Source: a virus
IMG/VR virus record: IMGVR_UViG_3300007514_000030
Coordinates: 1 to 39,037 of that record
Strand: one strand, 5' to 3'
DNA length: 39,037 nt
The first letter of the stretch is position 1. Every line of letters begins with the position of its first letter. A model generated the notes under the pieces. It was not told the origin of the DNA and did no database searches. It saw nothing but the letters and a program-made list of their open reading frames with translations. Of this stretch, positions 2,457-37,784 are shown piece after piece. The position numbers and the translations under genes were made by a program.

Positions 2457-4620
2457 CTATTAATCCTCTTTTAGTTAGTTCTTTACTGATAGATTTAACT
2501 GTACTGTTCATAAATTGATCCTCTGGTAAGGGAACTGTTAACGAATTATTAAAGCTTTCTAGCTTTTCCACAATTTCGCCTAGATGCATTCCCGAATCTA
2601 TCATTACCATGCCATATCTATATAAATGATTAGCTCGGTTACCTTTAGATGTATGAGTTTTGAACCATCGTTCAATATTATTCATACCTGCCGCACTGAT
2701 TTGTGCTTTAGTTTCATCAGAACGTTTAGTTTCTGGAATAAACATTGTTGCATCAATAACACTACCTTGATTATATTCATAATGTCCTGGGTGTGATGCC
2801 CATTTTCTTGCAATATCTTTAGCAGCTTCATCTACTGGAAAAGGTAACCATTCAAATACATTAGACATAAATCTTGAATACTCATCTGGAGATAATTTTA
2901 GTTTATGTGACAATGGAAGTATTAATCTAAATCTATTTAATTCAGGTGTATGTCGTTTAGTTGTTGAAATTAAAAAACTATAGTCTTCTAGTAAAATTTT
3001 AACAGTTGATATACTTACATCACCATCACAATCTAATATTAAAAGATCAAATCCTGCAATAGCATTTTCGCTTTTACGATGTCCATTGATAAATGCATGT
3101 GCTGCATAGTGATATCCATCAGCAGTTGTAAGTTTATAAAGTTTATTAAATGGCGGATGTTCAAGAACATAATCTTGTGCGATATCTCGACTAATAGAAG
3201 TAGTTAATTTATCTAAACTAGTTTCTATTAATGTTTCACCAATAAAAAATTCAATATCATCAATAGCTCGTTTTTTAATAATAATATTATTTTTATAACC
3301 AAAAGACATTGCTAATGTCATTAGATCTTTACGCTGAGATTCAGAACCTTTGTAGAATGGTAATTCTTCAATTAGTTCATGTTGGGTAACTTCATTATCA
3401 CAATCAGCTAAGTAGTGAGCTAAACGCTCATAGGGTCCTTGTTTACGCATTAGTAGATGGAAAGCTTCACCAGAATCTTCTACTACACTAATGGCGTAAT
3501 CTAAATGCTCTTGTGTTACATCTGGTGAATTATCAGCAAATGCATATGCACCTGCTAATTTAAGACTTTTATAATGTCTATGACTCATCTCTGCTTTATG
3601 TAAAGACATGTGATCTTTAAATTGATCTGAAATTGCTTCACATTTCATTTGGTATTTAATTAGATAAATAGAATTATCTTTAGACATTTGTAATACAGGA
3701 TTAAATGGTCTTTTTGCAAAGTTATTAAATGCAGTTTGTATAGTATGAATACTAGTAGCTAGATTAATATCTACCATTTCAGCATAGCGCTCTTCAGCTG
3801 ATGCATACTGAGTTCTATGACTATCAACTGTATAGCCAAATAGTAATCTACGTGCGTAACCTGTTTCTAAGAATTGTTTGAATTCATCTTCAACACGTCC
3901 ACCATCTAATAATTTAGTTGGAGTACCAAACATCATTAGATTAGTAGGTGTATTACCTGGCAGTTCTTCAGATCGAATATTCTCTGGCGTGTTCTTAATA
4001 AGCTTTTGTTTGATTAAGCCTATATCATATAATTCTAGAAATGTATTAAGAACATCTACATTAGCAGACATATTAGATCCAACTTCATCTAATTCTAAAT
4101 TCATTGAGCCTGCAGAAGCTAATAGTAGTTTCTCACGCATTTGTTTAACAGCTGGTGAAGTACCACTATCAAAACTAAATGCTAGTTCTCCTAATCTGTC
4201 AAAGTGATGTGTGAATCTATCTTTTTGAATTGCATATTCTTCAGTTAATGGAAGAATAGATTGTCCACTCGTTATTCGAGCTTGAGCTCTTTCTTGAGCT
4301 AGAACTTCAATGTTTTCTTCTGCTTTTCTAGGAAATACTGAAGTTAAAAATTCTTTTTTAAAATGAGATACAAACTCACGTTCTAAAATATTGGTTGAGT
4401 GACCTTTACCAGTACCTGATACCATTAAATTTAATACATAAGTATTAACGGGAATAACATCTCTATCATTAGTTTGAATATTACATCGCATCATTGATGC
4501 TACTTTAGATAAGTAATATCCAACTAGAATGCGAAAAAAATGTCGATTATCATTGTTTACTTTTCTAACAAGGATATCGACAATCTGTTCTGAAAACGGA
4601 TGATACTTCTTTTGTGTCAT
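2449..4620 (-). CDS. Primase-helicase fusion: DUF3987-like ATPase plus archaeo-eukaryotic primase-like domain
   Basis: A 723-residue replication protein. The N-terminal half has a P-loop, GTGKGHS (69-75), an acidic strand LELDEVG (175-181) and the segment LMMFGTPTKLLDGG, as in DUF3987-type phage helicases. The C-terminal part has LLILDCDGD (526-534), then STTKRHTPELNRFRLILPL (552-570). These are the DxD and ...H...RFR motifs of archaeo-eukaryotic (PrimPol-type) primases. It should therefore unwind DNA and make primers at the fork. RBS GGAGAAGACGT is good and the start overlaps the preceding gene by ATGA. The order ATPase first, primase second is the reverse of T7 gp4. Domain boundaries are estimates. 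Confidence 0.75.
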   Translation of the reverse strand: MTQKKYHPFSEQIVDILVRKVNNDNRHFFRILVGYYLSKVASMMRCNIQTNDRDVIPVNTYVLNLMVSGTGKGHSTNILEREFVSHFKKEFLTSVFPRKAEENIEVLAQERAQARITSGQSILPLTEEYAIQKDRFTHHFDRLGELAFSFDSGTSPAVKQMREKLLLASAGSMNLELDEVGSNMSANVDVLNTFLELYDIGLIKQKLIKNTPENIRSEELPGNTPTNLMMFGTPTKLLDGGRVEDEFKQFLETGYARRLLFGYTVDSHRTQYASAEERYAEMVDINLATSIHTIQTAFNNFAKRPFNPVLQMSKDNSIYLIKYQMKCEAISDQFKDHMSLHKAEMSHRHYKSLKLAGAYAFADNSPDVTQEHLDYAISVVEDSGEAFHLLMRKQGPYERLAHYLADCDNEVTQHELIEELPFYKGSESQRKDLMTLAMSFGYKNNIIIKKRAIDDIEFFIGETLIETSLDKLTTSISRDIAQDYVLEHPPFNKLYKLTTADGYHYAAHAFINGHRKSENAIAGFDLLILDCDGDVSISTVKILLEDYSFLISTTKRHTPELNRFRLILPLSHKLKLSPDEYSRFMSNVFEWLPFPVDEAAKDIARKWASHPGHYEYNQGSVIDATMFIPETKRSDETKAQISAAGMNNIERWFKTHTSKGNRANHLYRYGMVMIDSGMHLGEIVEKLESFNNSLTVPLPEDQFMNSTVKSISKELTKRGLIDE

Positions 4621-31303: not shown

Positions 31304-32080
31304 ATGAGTAAAGCTAGAGAACTCGCAAACTTACTAGAAGTAGATGGAGATGTTGTCTCAGCTAGCTTAGACAATGTTCCTGCCTCCGACTGGACGACAT
31401 TATTGAATAAACCCTCTCATGCAGATACAGATACTACTGATGCGAGTAATATCGGAAGTGGGACATTACCTAATGCTAGGATAGCTTCATTACCAACTAG
31501 TCAATTAACAGGAGCTATAACAAGTGTACCTTCTCATGGGTTAGCGGCTAGTGCAACAACAGATACTACATCGGCATCTAATATTACTTCAGGAACACTT
31601 CCTAATGCTCGAATATCTTCTTTGCCAACAAGTCAGTTAACTGGAGCATTAACAAGTGTGCCTTCACATGGTTTAGCCGCATCTGCTACTACGGACACCA
31701 CTAATGCAAGTAATATTAGTGGTGGAACATTAGCAACTGCTAGATTAGGTTCTGGTACTGCTAATTCAGGGTCATACCTAAGAGGTGATGGGTCATGGCA
31801 AACAAATTGTACGAATCATGGCAATTGTTCTAATTGTTCAGGTACAGATAGTTATGGTAATTGTGCTAATTGTTCTGGAACGGGTAGTGGAACTATGACA
31901 GGAATTGGTGGTAATATTGCAACTGTACCTCCAAGAAACCCTCAGAACACGCAATTTGGACAATGTAATTGTGGAGAACAATGTACATATATAAACCTAT
32001 CATATAGTAATCCTACTTTATCCACCGTTAATGGCCCGAATTTACAGCAATGCGCTTGCGCATGTGCTTGTAATTGCTAA
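31304..32080 (+). CDS. Tail fibre with tandem repeats and Cys-rich C-terminus
   Basis: A 258-residue fibre-like protein. Residues about 40-150 hold two near-identical 44-residue repeats and part of a third, containing GTLPNARIASLPTSQLTGA and SVPSHGLAASAT. GSYLRGDGSWQT is a motif typical of tail fibres. After it the sequence changes character: about 90 residues contain 13 Cys in clusters (NCTNHGNCSNC, GNCANC, QCNCGEQC, and a final QQCACACACNC). The first clusters themselves repeat the unit NCxNCSGT. It is the gene directly upstream of the oxygenase/radical SAM set and may be its substrate. Confidence 0.75.
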   Translation: MSKARELANLLEVDGDVVSASLDNVPASDWTTLLNKPSHADTDTTDASNIGSGTLPNARIASLPTSQLTGAITSVPSHGLAASATTDTTSASNITSGTLPNARISSLPTSQLTGALTSVPSHGLAASATTDTTNASNISGGTLATARLGSGTANSGSYLRGDGSWQTNCTNHGNCSNCSGTDSYGNCANCSGTGSGTMTGIGGNIATVPPRNPQNTQFGQCNCGEQCTYINLSYSNPTLSTVNGPNLQQCACACACNC

Positions 32081-32098
32081 TAAATAAAGGGAAACATT

Positions 32099-33118
32099 AT
32101 GTTTAAAAAAATGTATAACAGCTTATCAATGCCAGTTCATATTGAATTACTATTTCATGCTGATTATGTATGTGTAAAAACATGGAGTAGAATATCAAAA
32201 ACAAAATATGATGCTGTAGTTGAAAATAGTGATTCGTATGATGGACACGAACGAAGTTTAAATATGGTAAATTACACTAATTATCTATCTTTTCCTGCTG
32301 ATGCTAGTGGTATTTTTTATTCTAAAATGCCAGCAGCACACAGTAAAGGCCCGGTGATAACAGGTGAAGAATTTCTTCCTAATATTCCTGCTGATATTCG
32401 TGATACATATACTACAAAATTAGCAGATACTTATTGGGAAATGCGTTCATATTCATGGATTGATCCTGCTGACCCATCTATTAAGGGTGGAGAATTATCT
32501 GATGCTGCTTGTTGGGTTGTAGGTGTTGGGCATTTAGAAGTTCTTCCAGATGATTTAGCTACTCTTGGATGTGATGAAGTACATCATACTTTACCTGCGT
32601 TTAATTCTCTTGCATACTCAATTAGTTCAAAAGCCCATCCTTTACGAGAAACTCGTCATAATGGAGCACCTGTATGTGTAATGGTGTATAGAGCATTTGT
32701 AGATGATGCCTTCACTAATTGCTCTGTAACTATGAAATACAACAAAGGTTATGGTTTTAGTACTAATGTAGTTGATGGATGGACAGAAGGTAGTGGATAT
32801 AATTATCTTGGAGAATTAGCTGAAGCAATGCCTTCTTTTGTTGTAACAAGTGGTGGTGGAACACTTGATGCTGATGCAACTGATACTGTTGAATTTAAAA
32901 TGGTTGATTCAGATGGAACTACTATTGAAAAAGAAGTTACAGTATATTTAGAGTCTACAGGAGGATATTTACCCAAAACTAGAGTTACAACTACTAATAA
33001 AGGTTTAGGAACGTTTAAAGTTACTGCATTAGGGTTAGCATCTAGTGAAACATTTAAGGTAAAAATAGGGCTTAGAAATTATACTGGCGTTGTTGATGTT
33101 GCATACACCATCAATTAA
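32099..33118 (+). CDS. Putative structural protein with C-terminal Ig-like domain
   Basis: A 339-residue protein. The first 240 residues are rich in aromatic, Asp and His residues (FPADASGIFYSKMPAAHSKG, ADTYWEMRSYSWIDPADPS) and are not a family I recognise. The last 90 (FVVTSGGGTLDADATDTVEF, EKEVTVYLESTGGYLPKT and FKVKIGLRNYTGVVD) look like a bacterial Ig-like domain. AAAGGGAAACATT is the RBS. It lies between the fibre and the oxygenases, so it may be another fibre component or a modification target. Confidence 0.5.
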   Translation: MFKKMYNSLSMPVHIELLFHADYVCVKTWSRISKTKYDAVVENSDSYDGHERSLNMVNYTNYLSFPADASGIFYSKMPAAHSKGPVITGEEFLPNIPADIRDTYTTKLADTYWEMRSYSWIDPADPSIKGGELSDAACWVVGVGHLEVLPDDLATLGCDEVHHTLPAFNSLAYSISSKAHPLRETRHNGAPVCVMVYRAFVDDAFTNCSVTMKYNKGYGFSTNVVDGWTEGSGYNYLGELAEAMPSFVVTSGGGTLDADATDTVEFKMVDSDGTTIEKEVTVYLESTGGYLPKTRVTTTNKGLGTFKVTALGLASSETFKVKIGLRNYTGVVDVAYTIN

Positions 33119-33677
33119 TTTTTACAAAGACTGGCTTATTACTGATAAGTTAAATATTGATAACTTAATACAAGTAGTAAACAAAGGTATTGAGACAAGT
33201 GTCTCAGTACCTCTTGATTATTTAAGTATTGGCGGTAATTATTCTACTAAACAGTATAGTTTATTTAAATATTTTAAAAACAGTTCAGAACTTAATAGTC
33301 TCAAAGAGAAGATTTTATTAAACTTAAATACACATTTGAAGTTTAAATGTAATAAGTTAATATTACAAAATGCTTGGTCAATTTTAAGTTACGAGCATTC
33401 CTACCACACTCTACATAAGCATAATAATAATAAAATAAATTGGATAACTTCTGTAATATATCTAGCTGTTTCTAAGTTTGATGATTACAAATATCCACGT
33501 GATTCTCCTGGAGATTTTTATTATGTTTACCAACAAGATAAAGAAATTCAGTATAATAACCATAAGCCTCAAATAGGTGATTTACTTATATTTCCAGTTT
33601 GGTTATGGCATGGGACGTATCCTCAAACAAAAGGTTTGAGGCAAACATTAAATTTGGAATTTGAAATATGTCTGTAA
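33096..33677 (+). CDS. 2OG-Fe(II) oxygenase-like protein (PF13759/TIGR02466 type)
   Basis: A 193-residue protein from the ATG at 33096, which overlaps the previous gene; the RBS is weak. YHTLHKHNNNKINWITSVIY gives the HxH..., ss-VYY-type metal/strand motif, and PQIGDLLIFPVWLWHGTYPQ then GLRQTLNLEF gives the distal His and the 2-oxoglutarate-binding Arg. This is the order of the TIGR02466 oxygenases. They hydroxylate unknown substrates with Fe(II), O2 and 2-oxoglutarate. Part of a run of five oxygenases. Confidence 0.7.
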   Translation: MLHTPSINFYKDWLITDKLNIDNLIQVVNKGIETSVSVPLDYLSIGGNYSTKQYSLFKYFKNSSELNSLKEKILLNLNTHLKFKCNKLILQNAWSILSYEHSYHTLHKHNNNKINWITSVIYLAVSKFDDYKYPRDSPGDFYYVYQQDKEIQYNNHKPQIGDLLIFPVWLWHGTYPQTKGLRQTLNLEFEICL

Positions 33678-34492
33678 ATATACATGATAAATTAAATATT
33701 AATCATGAATGGACTACTCCTATTGGTAAAATGCATATTTATTTACCAGAAATTACAAGACAAGTTTTAATTAGTATTATGACTAAACAAAGTATGGTCT
33801 TTACTGAACAGACTTATGATAAGAAAAACAAAACTGCTAAGGAATTAAATAAATTTAATAATAGTATTTATAATTTGTTTGATTATTCTAAGGATAATTT
33901 AACATCTTTAGAATTAAGTGCTTTAAAAGAATTTGAAAAGATATCTTCAAAAATTATTAGAACTTACATTAATAAAGCATGGGAAATTGATGAAGATGTA
34001 GAAGTTAAAGTAAGAGCTTTTGGTAATGTTCAAAGACCATTTTCTCGAAGAACGTCTCCTCATTTTCATCATGGTTGGGATGGTGTTTTTGTTCATTATT
34101 TAACTGTTGGAGAAGAATTTAATCACCCCAAATTTAGTGATGAAAAGAATGAACACTTAGCAACAACAGCTGAAAGAACAAAAGAGAGTAGAGAAATACT
34201 AGATAAAGCGGACATACAAACTTCACCTGAAGATTATAGTGGAGATTTACTTTTACTTGATCCAAGACCAGCAATACGAATGCCTTATAATAATAAGGCA
34301 AAAACTATCAAACCTGAAGTGGGATTAACTTTAGTTCATCCTGCGTATCTTTGGCATGAAACGCAAACTCATACAAAGCCTGGGATTAGAGTAGCTATAG
34401 TAATTAACTTTAATATTAATAATAGAAACTATGATGAGTTGCCTACTAATTTAGCTTTTTATCGTCATGAAGATCCTAGTGTTTTACCCTAA
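33668..34492 (+). CDS. 2OG-Fe(II) oxygenase-like protein, paralogue A
   Basis: A 274-residue protein. RAFGNVQRPFSRRTSPHFHH (H132, H134) is the proximal motif; GLTLVHPAYLWHETQTHTKP and GIRVAIVINF supply the distal His and the Arg. LDPRPAIRMPY links them. It is clearly paralogous to the protein at 35109, sharing FGNVQ, DPRPAI, WHET and similar length. The N-terminal 100 residues are helical and extra to the oxygenase core. Overlaps the upstream gene by 10 bp. Confidence 0.7.
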   Translation: MSVNIHDKLNINHEWTTPIGKMHIYLPEITRQVLISIMTKQSMVFTEQTYDKKNKTAKELNKFNNSIYNLFDYSKDNLTSLELSALKEFEKISSKIIRTYINKAWEIDEDVEVKVRAFGNVQRPFSRRTSPHFHHGWDGVFVHYLTVGEEFNHPKFSDEKNEHLATTAERTKESREILDKADIQTSPEDYSGDLLLLDPRPAIRMPYNNKAKTIKPEVGLTLVHPAYLWHETQTHTKPGIRVAIVINFNINNRNYDELPTNLAFYRHEDPSVLP

Positions 34493-34503
34493 GGAGATAA
34501 ACT

Positions 34504-35112
34504 ATGCATTTGGTTAGAGAGCATGTTCTTTCATCAGAACAATGTAATCAACTTATTACTAATTATGATTCTCTGGATAACTATATAGAAGCAACAACAT
34601 ATGCTCGGGCAGAGGATAATAAATCACGTAATAACACTTTTGGTTATGGCTATGATTTTTCAGGTAACTATGTTGTTAAAGATGATAATATAAGAGCAAG
34701 TTTAATACATTGGGTTAACCCAATAGATTTAATTAATAAAGCTCTTTATGGATTTATGTTAGAAGCTAATACACATTTTTTTGATTATAATATTTCTGAC
34801 CATGAGCCAGTACAATTTACTAAATATCAAGCAGGTGGTGTGTTTTCTTGGCACTATGATACTTATACTAGAGATCAAATAGAGAATAATCGCCAGAGAA
34901 AATTGACTGCTAGTTTACTATTAAGTGATCCTAATGAATATGAAGGAGGCGTATTAGAATTTTTTAATGGAAAAGATGCCCCTATTACAACTTCTCAAGA
35001 TCAAGGAACTATTGTAATTTTTGATTCTAGTGATTGGCATAGAATTACTAAGATTACTAAAGGCATTCGTCACTCTTTTGTAATGTGGGCTGTAGGAGCA
35101 AAATTTAGATGA
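34504..35112 (+). CDS. Prolyl-4-hydroxylase-like (PKHD-type) 2OG-Fe(II) oxygenase
   Basis: A 202-residue enzyme with a canonical triad: WHYD (H117, D119), DWH (H179) and IRHS (R189, binding 2-oxoglutarate). YQAGGVFSWHYDTY, KLTASLLLSDPNEYEGGVLE and GTIVIFDSSDWHRITKITKG follow the PiuC/P4Hc family closely. Members hydroxylate protein side chains or small molecules. CTAAGGAGATAAACT is a strong RBS. The stop overlaps the next start. Confidence 0.85.
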   Translation: MHLVREHVLSSEQCNQLITNYDSLDNYIEATTYARAEDNKSRNNTFGYGYDFSGNYVVKDDNIRASLIHWVNPIDLINKALYGFMLEANTHFFDYNISDHEPVQFTKYQAGGVFSWHYDTYTRDQIENNRQRKLTASLLLSDPNEYEGGVLEFFNGKDAPITTSQDQGTIVIFDSSDWHRITKITKGIRHSFVMWAVGAKFR

Positions 35113-35936
35113 CTACAAATGCAGAAAAACAACTAGATATAGCTCAAGATTATATTAAATATCATCAGACTCGAAAACCAGAAGCTGAAGATACTACTAG
35201 ACATGTAATGGATGAGTTGGCAACAATAACACATAGATTCACAACTCCGTTTATGGAAATGGATTCTAGGTTACCCGAAAAAATGAAAAAAGATTTAATT
35301 TCTGTTTTGGTTGATAAAGAAGAAGCTATGTCTGAGTTAAAAGAAAAAAATCCAGATTTTTATTCTATAGCTGAATCCAAAGGATTTTATGCAACAACTC
35401 ATTATAATCTTTTTTCTGAAAAAGATATGGAAGACTACCCAGAACAAAAAGATTCTATTTTGCAATTTGAGCAAATAGCATGTCAACAAATTAGATATTA
35501 TATTCGTAAAGGTTGGGGTATCCAGCAAGCTGATGATCTAAAATTAGAAGGTAGATGTTTTGGTAATGTACAAGAGCCAGGAGCTAGAACATACCCTCAT
35601 TATCATCAAGATGTATCTGGTGTTTTAGTTAATTACTTGGCTATGGGAGATGAATCTATCCCATATGAAGAGCAAATTTATAAAGATATGGATAAATCTT
35701 CCAGACATGGTAATCATCAGATTTTATTTCAAGATCCTAGACCTGCTATTGGATACCCGTATTGGGAAAAGATTTATGCTGTAACACCTAGAGTAGGACT
35801 ATCAATTATTCATCCTAATTATGTTTGGCATGAAACTAACACTTGGCGGGGTGAAGGAACAAGAGTCAGTATTGTTGTTAATTTTAGAATTATTTCACAT
35901 GGATATAATGAATTACATGAAACCTTTCGAAGTTAA
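35109..35936 (+). CDS. 2OG-Fe(II) oxygenase-like protein, paralogue B
   Basis: A 275-residue protein, the same length as paralogue A. RCFGNVQEPGARTYPHYHQD contains the proximal His pair and here also an Asp in HxD spacing. QDPRPAIGYPYWEKIYAVTP and VGLSIIHPNYVWHETNTWRG then RVSIVVNFRI supply the rest. The unusual 130-residue helical N-terminus is shared with paralogue A. Start overlaps the previous stop (ATGA). Confidence 0.75.
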   Translation: MTTNAEKQLDIAQDYIKYHQTRKPEAEDTTRHVMDELATITHRFTTPFMEMDSRLPEKMKKDLISVLVDKEEAMSELKEKNPDFYSIAESKGFYATTHYNLFSEKDMEDYPEQKDSILQFEQIACQQIRYYIRKGWGIQQADDLKLEGRCFGNVQEPGARTYPHYHQDVSGVLVNYLAMGDESIPYEEQIYKDMDKSSRHGNHQILFQDPRPAIGYPYWEKIYAVTPRVGLSIIHPNYVWHETNTWRGEGTRVSIVVNFRIISHGYNELHETFRS

Positions 35937-36417
35937 AGATAATTTTTTATCTGAAGTAGATTTTAAGAAAGTTACAGATGCTATTATAGATGGAGATATC
36001 CATTGGCTATATAGTAAAGCAGTTGCAGGCATGACAGAACAAGAAGATGACAATTATGGGTACTACTTAAGTAATATAGGAACAGATCATCCTTTTTATA
36101 ATTTTATGAATCCTATATATGATAAATTAGGTATTGATACATTAGTTGATACAATATATCGATTAAGAACAATGCATTATCCTAGAACACATACTCTTGT
36201 AAAACATCCATTACATCGGGATCAAAATCATTCTGTACAAACAATGTTATTATTTCTAAATACTTGTGATGGCTATACTTATTTTAAAGAACAGGATAAA
36301 AAACTTTATTCTGTAGCAAATACAGCTGTAATCTTTGATTCAATTAATTTACATCATAGTACAACTACGACCAATGCAAATAGAAGATTATGTTTGCAAG
36401 TAAGTTGGAAAGGATAA
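35908..36417 (+). CDS. 2OG-Fe(II) oxygenase-like protein with HRD motif
   Basis: A 169-residue protein. Start is uncertain among ATGs at 35899, 35908 and 35917, all inside the end of the previous gene. PLHRDQNHSVQTMLLFLNTC gives HxD (H103, D105), and TAVIFDSINLHHSTTTTNAN then RR gives distal His and Arg. The fold is therefore that of small cupin-like 2OG oxygenases found in marine phages. Ending VSWKG. Directly precedes the radical SAM gene. Confidence 0.7.
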   Translation: MNYMKPFEVKDNFLSEVDFKKVTDAIIDGDIHWLYSKAVAGMTEQEDDNYGYYLSNIGTDHPFYNFMNPIYDKLGIDTLVDTIYRLRTMHYPRTHTLVKHPLHRDQNHSVQTMLLFLNTCDGYTYFKEQDKKLYSVANTAVIFDSINLHHSTTTTNANRRLCLQVSWKG

Positions 36418-36422
36418 TAACT

Positions 36423-37784
36423 ATGAAGTTTAAATTTCATATGACTAAAGGTGATGAAGAATTAGTATTAGACTACGATAATTCTACATCTGAATTACGA
36501 TATGAAAATGGGGATATTGTTATTCCTCAAGATATTTTTATAGATAGAGCCCCATTTTATAAGATGAATGCAGGAAAACGTGGGTTAAAAAAGATAAAAA
36601 TACAATTAGGTTTTAAATGTAATTACTCTTGTGAGTACTGCTCACAACGGTTTGTACCACGAAATCCAGATGATAGTCATACAGAAGAAGAAATAGATTC
36701 TACGCAAATTGATGCATTTATAAAGAGTTTTAATAATATCTCTATTGGAGAAGAATTGCATTTTGAAATGTGGGGTGGGGAGCCGTTTTTATATTTTGAA
36801 AAAATGAAAATTGTAACTGAGCAACTTCATGTCAAATTTCCTAACGCTACTTTTAGTGTTATAACGAATGGTTCTATATTAAATCAAGAAATAGTGGATT
36901 TTATTCAAAAATATGGGTTTAGAGTTTCTATTTCCCATGATGCTAATGGTCAAAAAACTAGAGGACCGGACCCACTAGATGATCCAGAACAAAAGAAATG
37001 GTTATTTAAATTACGTAATCTATTAGTTCCTGAGCAAAAGTTCTCTGTTAATGCCATGATTCATAAACATAATGATAGTAGAGCAGATGTACAAAAATGG
37101 GTTAGAAATACTTTTGGAATGGTAAATATTGGTGAGGGCGGAACTGTTGATGCATATGATGAAGGTGGAGCTTCTATGTCATGGCAATCTGAAGAAGAGC
37201 ATATTGCATACAGAAGACAAGCTTTTAATGATGTTATGCATAGAAAAATTGATCAATTTAATATTTTAAATCAAAAAATAGGTAATTTTATTAGTTCTAT
37301 AAGAGAACAACGATCTTCGGATTCATTATTTCAAAAATGTGGTATGGATCATCCAGATACAATGGCTGTTGATTTAAATGGGAATGTTACTACTTGCCAA
37401 AATGTTACTGTATCAGGAGAAAATCCAGCAGGCATTTCCCATAAAATTGGGCATATGGATAATTTAAATGCTGTAGATATTAAAACAGGTACTCATTGGT
37501 CAGATCGAGAAGAGTGTGTTAAATGTCCTGTTTTACAATTATGTCAAGGATCATGTTTATTTCTATCCCCTGGATCAAAAGAATGGGAACTTTCATGCGA
37601 TAATTCATATTCCGATAATGTTGTGTGGTTAGCTGCTGGATTATATGAACTTACGGGTTATACTTTGTATCGTATTGAAAGTACTGATTTACCAGAATAT
37701 AGAAAAGATGTATTTGGCTTTAATACAACAAAATATGCTGTGGAGAATGGAAATAGTGGTAAGATATTAGAAGGTAAAGCATGA
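36423..37784 (+). CDS. Radical SAM enzyme with SPASM domain
   Basis: A 453-residue enzyme started at MKFKFHMTKGDEEL, with GGAAAGGATAATAACT upstream. CNYSCEYC (C66, C70, C73) binds the radical SAM [4Fe-4S] cluster; EMWGGEP (115-121) is the SAM-binding GGE motif. The C-terminal 110 residues have the SPASM Cys pattern, with TCQN, then CVKCPVLQLCQGSC and a later Cys, for auxiliary clusters. Such enzymes modify peptides or proteins (thioethers, epimerisation, formylglycine). The substrate is not defined; the Cys-rich fibre upstream is the best local candidate. Confidence 0.92.
   Translation: MKFKFHMTKGDEELVLDYDNSTSELRYENGDIVIPQDIFIDRAPFYKMNAGKRGLKKIKIQLGFKCNYSCEYCSQRFVPRNPDDSHTEEEIDSTQIDAFIKSFNNISIGEELHFEMWGGEPFLYFEKMKIVTEQLHVKFPNATFSVITNGSILNQEIVDFIQKYGFRVSISHDANGQKTRGPDPLDDPEQKKWLFKLRNLLVPEQKFSVNAMIHKHNDSRADVQKWVRNTFGMVNIGEGGTVDAYDEGGASMSWQSEEEHIAYRRQAFNDVMHRKIDQFNILNQKIGNFISSIREQRSSDSLFQKCGMDHPDTMAVDLNGNVTTCQNVTVSGENPAGISHKIGHMDNLNAVDIKTGTHWSDREECVKCPVLQLCQGSCLFLSPGSKEWELSCDNSYSDNVVWLAAGLYELTGYTLYRIESTDLPEYRKDVFGFNTTKYAVENGNSGKILEGKA

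Follow-up and report, generated by a model that had tools for sequence, protein, structure and literature searches.

Alternating-cysteine tails of phage tail fibres and their partner radical SAM/SPASM enzymes: a candidate system for fibre-tip modification

Known SPASM maturases and the phage operon

Radical S-adenosylmethionine (SAM) enzymes with a SPASM domain are known for the maturation of ribosomally made sequences. The sactipeptide/ranthipeptide maturases (CteB, SkfB, RumMC) combine a radical SAM core and a SPASM domain with a Cys-rich ribosomal substrate encoded nearby, and QhpD (thioether cross-links in a quinohemoprotein subunit) and the anaerobic sulfatase-maturating enzyme, anSME (formylglycine in sulfatases), are likewise SPASM enzymes that modify Cys in proteins. 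Here we describe an operon of comparable make-up in a viral record, IMGVR_UViG_3300007514_000030, whose full 39,037 bases are the DNA analysed (hereafter the window): a radical SAM/SPASM gene follows the gene for a Cys-rich tail fibre. Unlike in the sactipeptide/ranthipeptide systems, the enzyme is proposed to act on the terminus of a virion tail fibre and not on a small leader peptide; unlike QhpD and anSME, which are not phage systems and have other substrates, the present enzyme is paired with an (X-Cys)n tail that lacks the CxPxR sulfatase motif. The widespread core of the system consists of two genes, namely a fibre with an extreme C-terminal (X-Cys)n tail, where X is Asn, Ala or Asp, and a member of one radical SAM family. 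The co-occurrence of tail and enzyme is two-way and near-absolute across unrelated phages, and the pairing looks like a previously undescribed fibre-tip modification system. Its core features in the window are:

31304..32080, + strand: tail fibre of 258 aa with a Cys/Asn-rich distal part (13 Cys at residues 169-258), the proposed substrate
32051..32077, + strand: C-terminal (X-Cys)n tail, CACACACNC, a conserved sequence signature with a like terminus in 140 loci
36423..37784 (likely start; the longest open reading frame, ORF, runs from 36390), + strand: radical SAM/SPASM enzyme, the proposed fibre maturase (PF04055, TIGR04085, phrog_1802 6e-54)

The operon runs in the order Cys-rich fibre, a second gene (gene2), five oxygenase-like genes (33090-36417) and the radical SAM/SPASM gene; all eight lie on the + strand, and neighbours overlap or sit a few bases apart. 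A sequence-only reading of this DNA had proposed exactly such a tight operon of a fibre, a structural gene, five oxygenase-like genes and a radical SAM/SPASM gene, and all eight are present as placed. It also knew of no phage system of this composition, and a search of the openly licensed literature agrees with it: we found no paper there linking radical SAM enzymes (searched with tail fibres, and with thioethers or ribosomally synthesized and post-translationally modified peptides, RiPPs, in phages) to the modification of phage fibres, although a description may have been overlooked. The window also encodes a primase (phrog_2135), an N4-like RNA polymerase (phrog_2166) and a terminase (phrog_38), markers which indicate that its source is an N4-like phage.

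The window fibre ends in QQCACACACNC, and all its Cys fall within the last 90 residues. Against PHROGs it gives a weak match to phrog_2012 only, while tailed homologues from other groups match PHROGs tail fibre families; its assignment as a tail fibre is thus based on the homology of the loci and on its position. Homologues of its body and tail occur in marine phages, while searches of named phages with the window fibre (tblastn) and with the operon (blastn) found nothing.

Pairing of the fibre tail with the enzyme

Homologues of the radical SAM enzyme were gathered from viral contigs, bacterial genomes and named phages, with 490 relatives confirmed in one viral collection. At almost every enzyme locus with enough sequence upstream there is a same-strand ORF with X-Cys pairs at its extreme C-terminus (NCNCNC, CACACNC, NCNCDCNC, etc.). 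Among loci retrieved by the enzyme alone, 83 of 105 have a tailed ORF upstream; of the remaining 22, 21 lie on contigs with at most 2.2 kb before the enzyme, and L064, whose enzyme is truncated, looks chimeric. When the enzymes are clustered at 70% identity, 42 of the 45 clusters have the tailed ORF and the other three are cut off. One group has the tailed gene ending 9-19 bp before the enzyme with neither gene2 nor an oxygenase in between, an arrangement suggesting that the enzyme acts on the tail itself.

The tails are constrained in composition and placement: across 41 distinct tails, X is Asn at 118, Ala at 47 and Asp at 21 of 204 positions, each tail has 3-10 Cys, and the stop codon follows directly in 30 of the 41. 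The ORFs that bear them span 89-686 aa, most being full tail fibres, and by blastp they form five unconnected groups (the largest possibly being held together by common fibre repeats); the tail is therefore attached to different fibre bodies. Across 140 module loci, the 1983 other same-strand ORFs with a length of 100 aa or above include 15 with a CxCxC end, each of which is another fibre of a module. As no unrelated ORF in the module loci has such an end, the Cys-rich fibre as a chance feature is ruled out. In certain operons (L001:3707-5884 and L002:4637-5998) the Cys-tailed fibre gene is present as three or four paralogues in tandem, each closing in a CACNC-type end of its own.

The converse association was examined by searching viral contigs with DNA patterns for NCNCNC-stop and CACACNC-stop, the enzyme not being considered, and requiring that the pattern close an ORF of 80 codons or more and be followed by no less than 2.5 kb of sequence; the enzyme was then sought on the same strand within 6 kb. 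Among the matches listed, it lies downstream of 49 of 54 tail-ending genes (37 of 42 without duplicates), as against none of 42 chance patterns in short ORFs (none of 33 without duplicates; Fisher p = 5e-22 and 3e-16, respectively). The five exceptions among these matches resemble other protein families and have no radical SAM relative nearby; those opened were L120/L179/L200, L123/L187/L211 and L168. The first set (ORF ends at 3979, 3226 and 575, respectively, on the coding strand) represents a different Cys-rich phage family (CCLAKKVKDLLECKCKECIEC...) that also ends in NCNCNC, again with no radical SAM relative in its vicinity.

A finer contrast comes from fibres that share the body of the window fibre: with the tail present, the enzyme is found in 10 of 11 cases, and with the tail absent in none of 47, some of these tail-less contigs being short. 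The contig of the eleventh tailed fibre stops 2.3 kb past the fibre, and its near-identical relative L271 stops inside the oxygenase cluster; more generally, the contigs L271, L272 and L301 stop within that cluster or shortly after the fibre.

These observations bear on how such genes have been interpreted so far. Reports have treated phage radical SAM genes as metabolic (PMC2853527, PMC9301287); a virome survey listed 261 phage genes called ahbD, terming their function speculative (PMC9301287), and radical SAM cassettes in the host-recognition region of pelagimyophages were left uninterpreted (PMC7029224). Following this usual reading, and with the gene of phage JWF annotated as a sulfatase-maturating enzyme, the enzymes could be auxiliary metabolic genes (for heme, sulfatase or other metabolism) whose place near fibres is incidental. 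That leaves the two-way association with the tail unexplained, including the absence of the enzyme beside the same fibre body without a tail, and on this ground we reject it as extremely improbable. Some of the virome genes called ahbD may instead belong to the fibre-linked family.

The module is spread over phages of quite different type. It is present in N4-like phages such as the window's, T4-like phages (L004, with the tail sheath phrog_23 and a terminase) and JWF-like siphophages of Achromobacter, as well as on contigs of Limnohabitans, other Burkholderiales and Burkholderia paludis, which are probably prophages or misbinned viral contigs. Two relatives of JWF, Xylophilus phage Lumi and Caulobacter phage Seuss, lack the module: the region past the tail-tip gene contains no Cys tail, and their records yielded no match to the enzyme. 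A distinct variant occurs in Achromobacter phages JWF and 2-1 and in Burkholderia paludis MSh1, where the run is internal (e.g. RQNCNCDCNCNCS-CFPAGT) and a Hint domain (PF05203) starts at the next Cys. The fibres with an internal NCNCDCNC-type run followed by a Hint domain are:

L006:9670-11121
L005:9796-11238
L100:5721-7250

Hint domains cut before their first Cys, and a processed fibre would therefore keep a C-terminal tail of the same kind. Together with the exact termini seen elsewhere, this variant suggests that the tail must be terminal.

The enzyme and its proposed reaction

The radical SAM core of the enzyme is recognized by PF04055 (2.7e-11), and the Cys of its CX3CX2C motif (77, 81 and 84) are invariant in 28 homologues. 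TIGR04085 identifies the SPASM domain at 33.5 bits against a cut-off of 27, and the motif CX9-15GX4C - CX2CX5CX3C - C is present, beginning with C317-x13-G331-x4-C336; the seven SPASM Cys (317, 336, 376, 379, 385, 389 and 403) are likewise invariant in the 28 homologues. No NCBIfam maturase model reaches its cut-off, the best being those for the nif11 maturase (65.6 of 518.7 bits) and PapB (64.3 of 340); the anaerobic sulfatase maturase model TIGR03942 (61.1 of 349 bits) and the model TIGR03906 also stay below theirs. Hence, the enzyme represents an unnamed family within the radical SAM/SPASM class. Radical SAM proteins of Campylobacter phages are distant from it (26-29%). In its predicted structure (predicted local distance difference test, pLDDT, 82.4; predicted template-modelling score 0.85) the nearest PDB folds are CteB (5wgg) first, followed by anSME, TigE, ChlB and the sactisynthase SkfB.

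We propose that, inside the infected cell and no later than assembly, this dedicated enzyme modifies the (X-Cys)n tail, such that the Cys sulfurs become thioether-linked to carbons of neighbouring residues. The cross-linking would make the distal end of the fibre, where the receptor is probably bound, a rigid and stable tip, which gene2 would partner; in about half of the lineages, the window included, 2-oxoglutarate (2OG)-Fe(II) oxygenases would be added, probably hydroxylating the same Cys/Asn-rich end. From the sequence associations, the fibre tail is very probably the substrate of the radical SAM enzyme. We infer a role of the modified tip in host recognition or virion stability.

Several points weigh against this proposal. 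That tail and enzyme occur together is no proof that one acts on the other, since linked genes are co-inherited; hitch-hiking alone is nonetheless disfavoured, because the pairing of tail and enzyme recurs with different fibre bodies. The fold likeness to CteB is moderate (TM about 0.55), with anSME, whose product is formylglycine, equally close, and Pfam detects no PqqD-like recognition domain in the enzyme. Further, half of the enzyme clusters show no oxygenase: of 54 clusters, 27 have a detected 2OG gene in the interval from fibre to enzyme, a lower bound as some of the interval proteins give weak 2OG signals only.

Among the conceivable reactions, thioether formation is our first choice and the likeliest chemistry, though taken by itself it falls slightly short of an even chance. 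It is preferred because the substrate is Cys-rich, the nearest structure is that of a thioether-forming enzyme, and Asn and Ala, the commonest residues at X, are known acceptors, as in ruminococcin C1 (PMC8172795). The chief rival, which we regard as unlikely, is that the alternating Cys form a metal or Fe-S ladder on the trimer axis and that the enzyme makes another change (epimerisation, formylglycine or cofactor loading), so that the fibre is modified without thioethers. Strict alternation would place all Cys on one face of the strand, and comparison of structures or profiles places both anSME and the epimerase EpeE near the enzyme. A precedent is the tip of T4 gp37, where HxH pairs hold iron, with the same proposed for marine phage fibres (PMC11705849): it too has alternating residues of metal-ligand type in the distal fibre tip, but these are His and not Cys, no modifying enzyme is known, and the present tail is the extreme C-terminus. 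Moreover, a ladder alone needs no radical SAM enzyme, yet the enzyme is nearly always there, and a pure metal site does not require that X be limited to Asn, Ala and Asp.

The resemblance to RiPP loci raises a further alternative: some tailed ORFs are short (from 89 aa) and stand directly before the enzyme like RiPP precursors, so the tail might serve to carry a small modified peptide destined for cleavage and release, with no working role in the virion itself. A small leader-bearing precursor peptide, as found beside sactipeptide and ranthipeptide maturases, does not accompany the enzyme; the candidate substrate is the tail fibre, in most cases full-length and reaching 686 aa. In the intervals listed we saw neither a protease nor an exporter, and the Hint variant is predicted to be cut after the tail, which would thus stay on the fibre. 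A released peptide is therefore very unlikely.

The kind of reaction proposed for the fibre is in itself familiar, as SPASM enzymes are known to mature ribosomal sequences; what would differ is the target, a part of the virion. Confirmation of the product would make it a new kind of phage system. More broadly, we tentatively suggest, at a little under even likelihood, a new class of maturation of viral structural proteins, in which a radical SAM/SPASM enzyme, a tip partner and optional 2OG oxygenases furnish the receptor-binding fibre end of unrelated tailed phages with a cross-linked (X-Cys)n cap, a surface that the ribosome alone cannot make. If the proposed modification is right, receptor-binding tips can carry enzyme-made chemistry; neither sequence nor structure prediction would then suffice to deduce fibre function and host range, and a fibre produced in the absence of its maturase would not have the correct form. 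A function would also be gained for phrog_1802, a radical SAM family without one that has possibly been filed as metabolic in virome surveys. The enzyme relatives constitute a large natural set of enzyme-substrate pairs, each with a short, directly testable tail.

Gene2 and the oxygenases

The remaining genes of the operon are:

32099..33118, + strand: gene2, 339 aa, probable virion protein or tip partner with an Ig-like C-terminal domain (profile comparison, AlphaFold2 model)
33090..33677, + strand: 2OG-Fe(II) oxygenase 1 (PF13759 3.3e-10, phrog_81)
33668..34492, + strand: 2OG-Fe(II) oxygenase 2 (PF13759 1.4e-6, phrog_81)
34504..35112, + strand: 2OG-Fe(II) oxygenase 3 (PF13640 7.7e-14, phrog_61)
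35109..35936, + strand: 2OG-Fe(II) oxygenase 4, of the module-linked subfamily (PF13759 1.8e-8; relatives at no less than 48% identity in modules)
35917..36417 (likely start; longest ORF from 35821), + strand: oxygenase-like gene 5 (phrog_274 1.5e-28; HxD and distal H/R)

In 120 loci, an ORF of 200 aa or more starts no further than 80 bases from where the fibre ends. Profile comparison links the gene2 family of the window to six of seven other module groups (probabilities 95-99.7), the Achromobacter group being the one left out. A PDB search with the gene2 sequence gave no match; in its AlphaFold2 model (pLDDT 84.9) the Ig-like C-terminal domain resembles intimin/InvE and the N-terminal part has no clear match. 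Gene2 directly follows the fibre gene as T4 gene 38 follows gene 37, and by this analogy it is probably a partner of the fibre tip.

All five oxygenase-like genes have the His-x-Asp/His...His...Arg residues. Genes 1-4 are above the Pfam cut-offs, while gene 5 has no Pfam match and is identified solely by phrog_274 and its HxD...H...R pattern. The PHROGs name of phrog_274, 'DNA endonuclease V', is at odds with this 2OG-type pattern and may be wrong. A likeness is offered by the proteusin pathway of the polytheonamides, where radical SAM enzymes and a 2OG-Fe(II) oxygenase act on a ribosomal Asn-rich sequence; it differs in its secreted small product and its other radical SAM types, and is not known to be linked to phage fibres.

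The presence of 2OG genes changes at least eight times along the enzyme tree, and the Achromobacter phages have no oxygenases. Given these changes and the cluster count above, the oxygenases are accessory; as an essential part they are ruled out, none being detected in half of the enzyme clusters. In the sequence-only reading they had belonged with the enzyme to one fibre-modifying set. What stands of it is the pairing of fibre tail and SPASM enzyme, which holds both ways across unrelated phages when gene neighbourhoods are compared as it had suggested, and neither the radical SAM gene nor the closest oxygenase subfamily is regularly found without a Cys-rich fibre. The oxygenases do not stand as part of the core, nor does Cys-richness in general as the target, the conserved one being the extreme C-terminal tail.

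That the oxygenases hydroxylate the fibre is an evenly balanced proposition. Alternatively, with the radical SAM enzyme still acting on the fibre, they could be carried along with the fibre region and act elsewhere (on host or phage DNA, proteins or metabolites), which we consider doubtful but well within reach: 2OG genes are common in marine phages, PHROGs classes them as morons, and their patchy distribution over the enzyme clusters and tree fits such a role. Against this, the oxygenase genes lie between fibre and enzyme within one operon, and the main subfamily of the window (alignment A5) sits in modules: in 29 loci at 48% identity or more the enzyme is present in 26 and the tail in 28, the missing ones falling at contig ends. 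Ten remoter A5 loci (at most 36%) and a 74-residue fragment (L297, 47%) have neither enzyme nor tail. The subfamily is thus found essentially only in fibre/radical SAM modules, a specificity that applies to it and not to 2OG oxygenases generally, as it was defined from module members. In L045 (4298-5818) and L070, two His-rich genes between the fibre and the radical SAM gene look like fatty acid desaturases and stand beside oxygenase-like genes.

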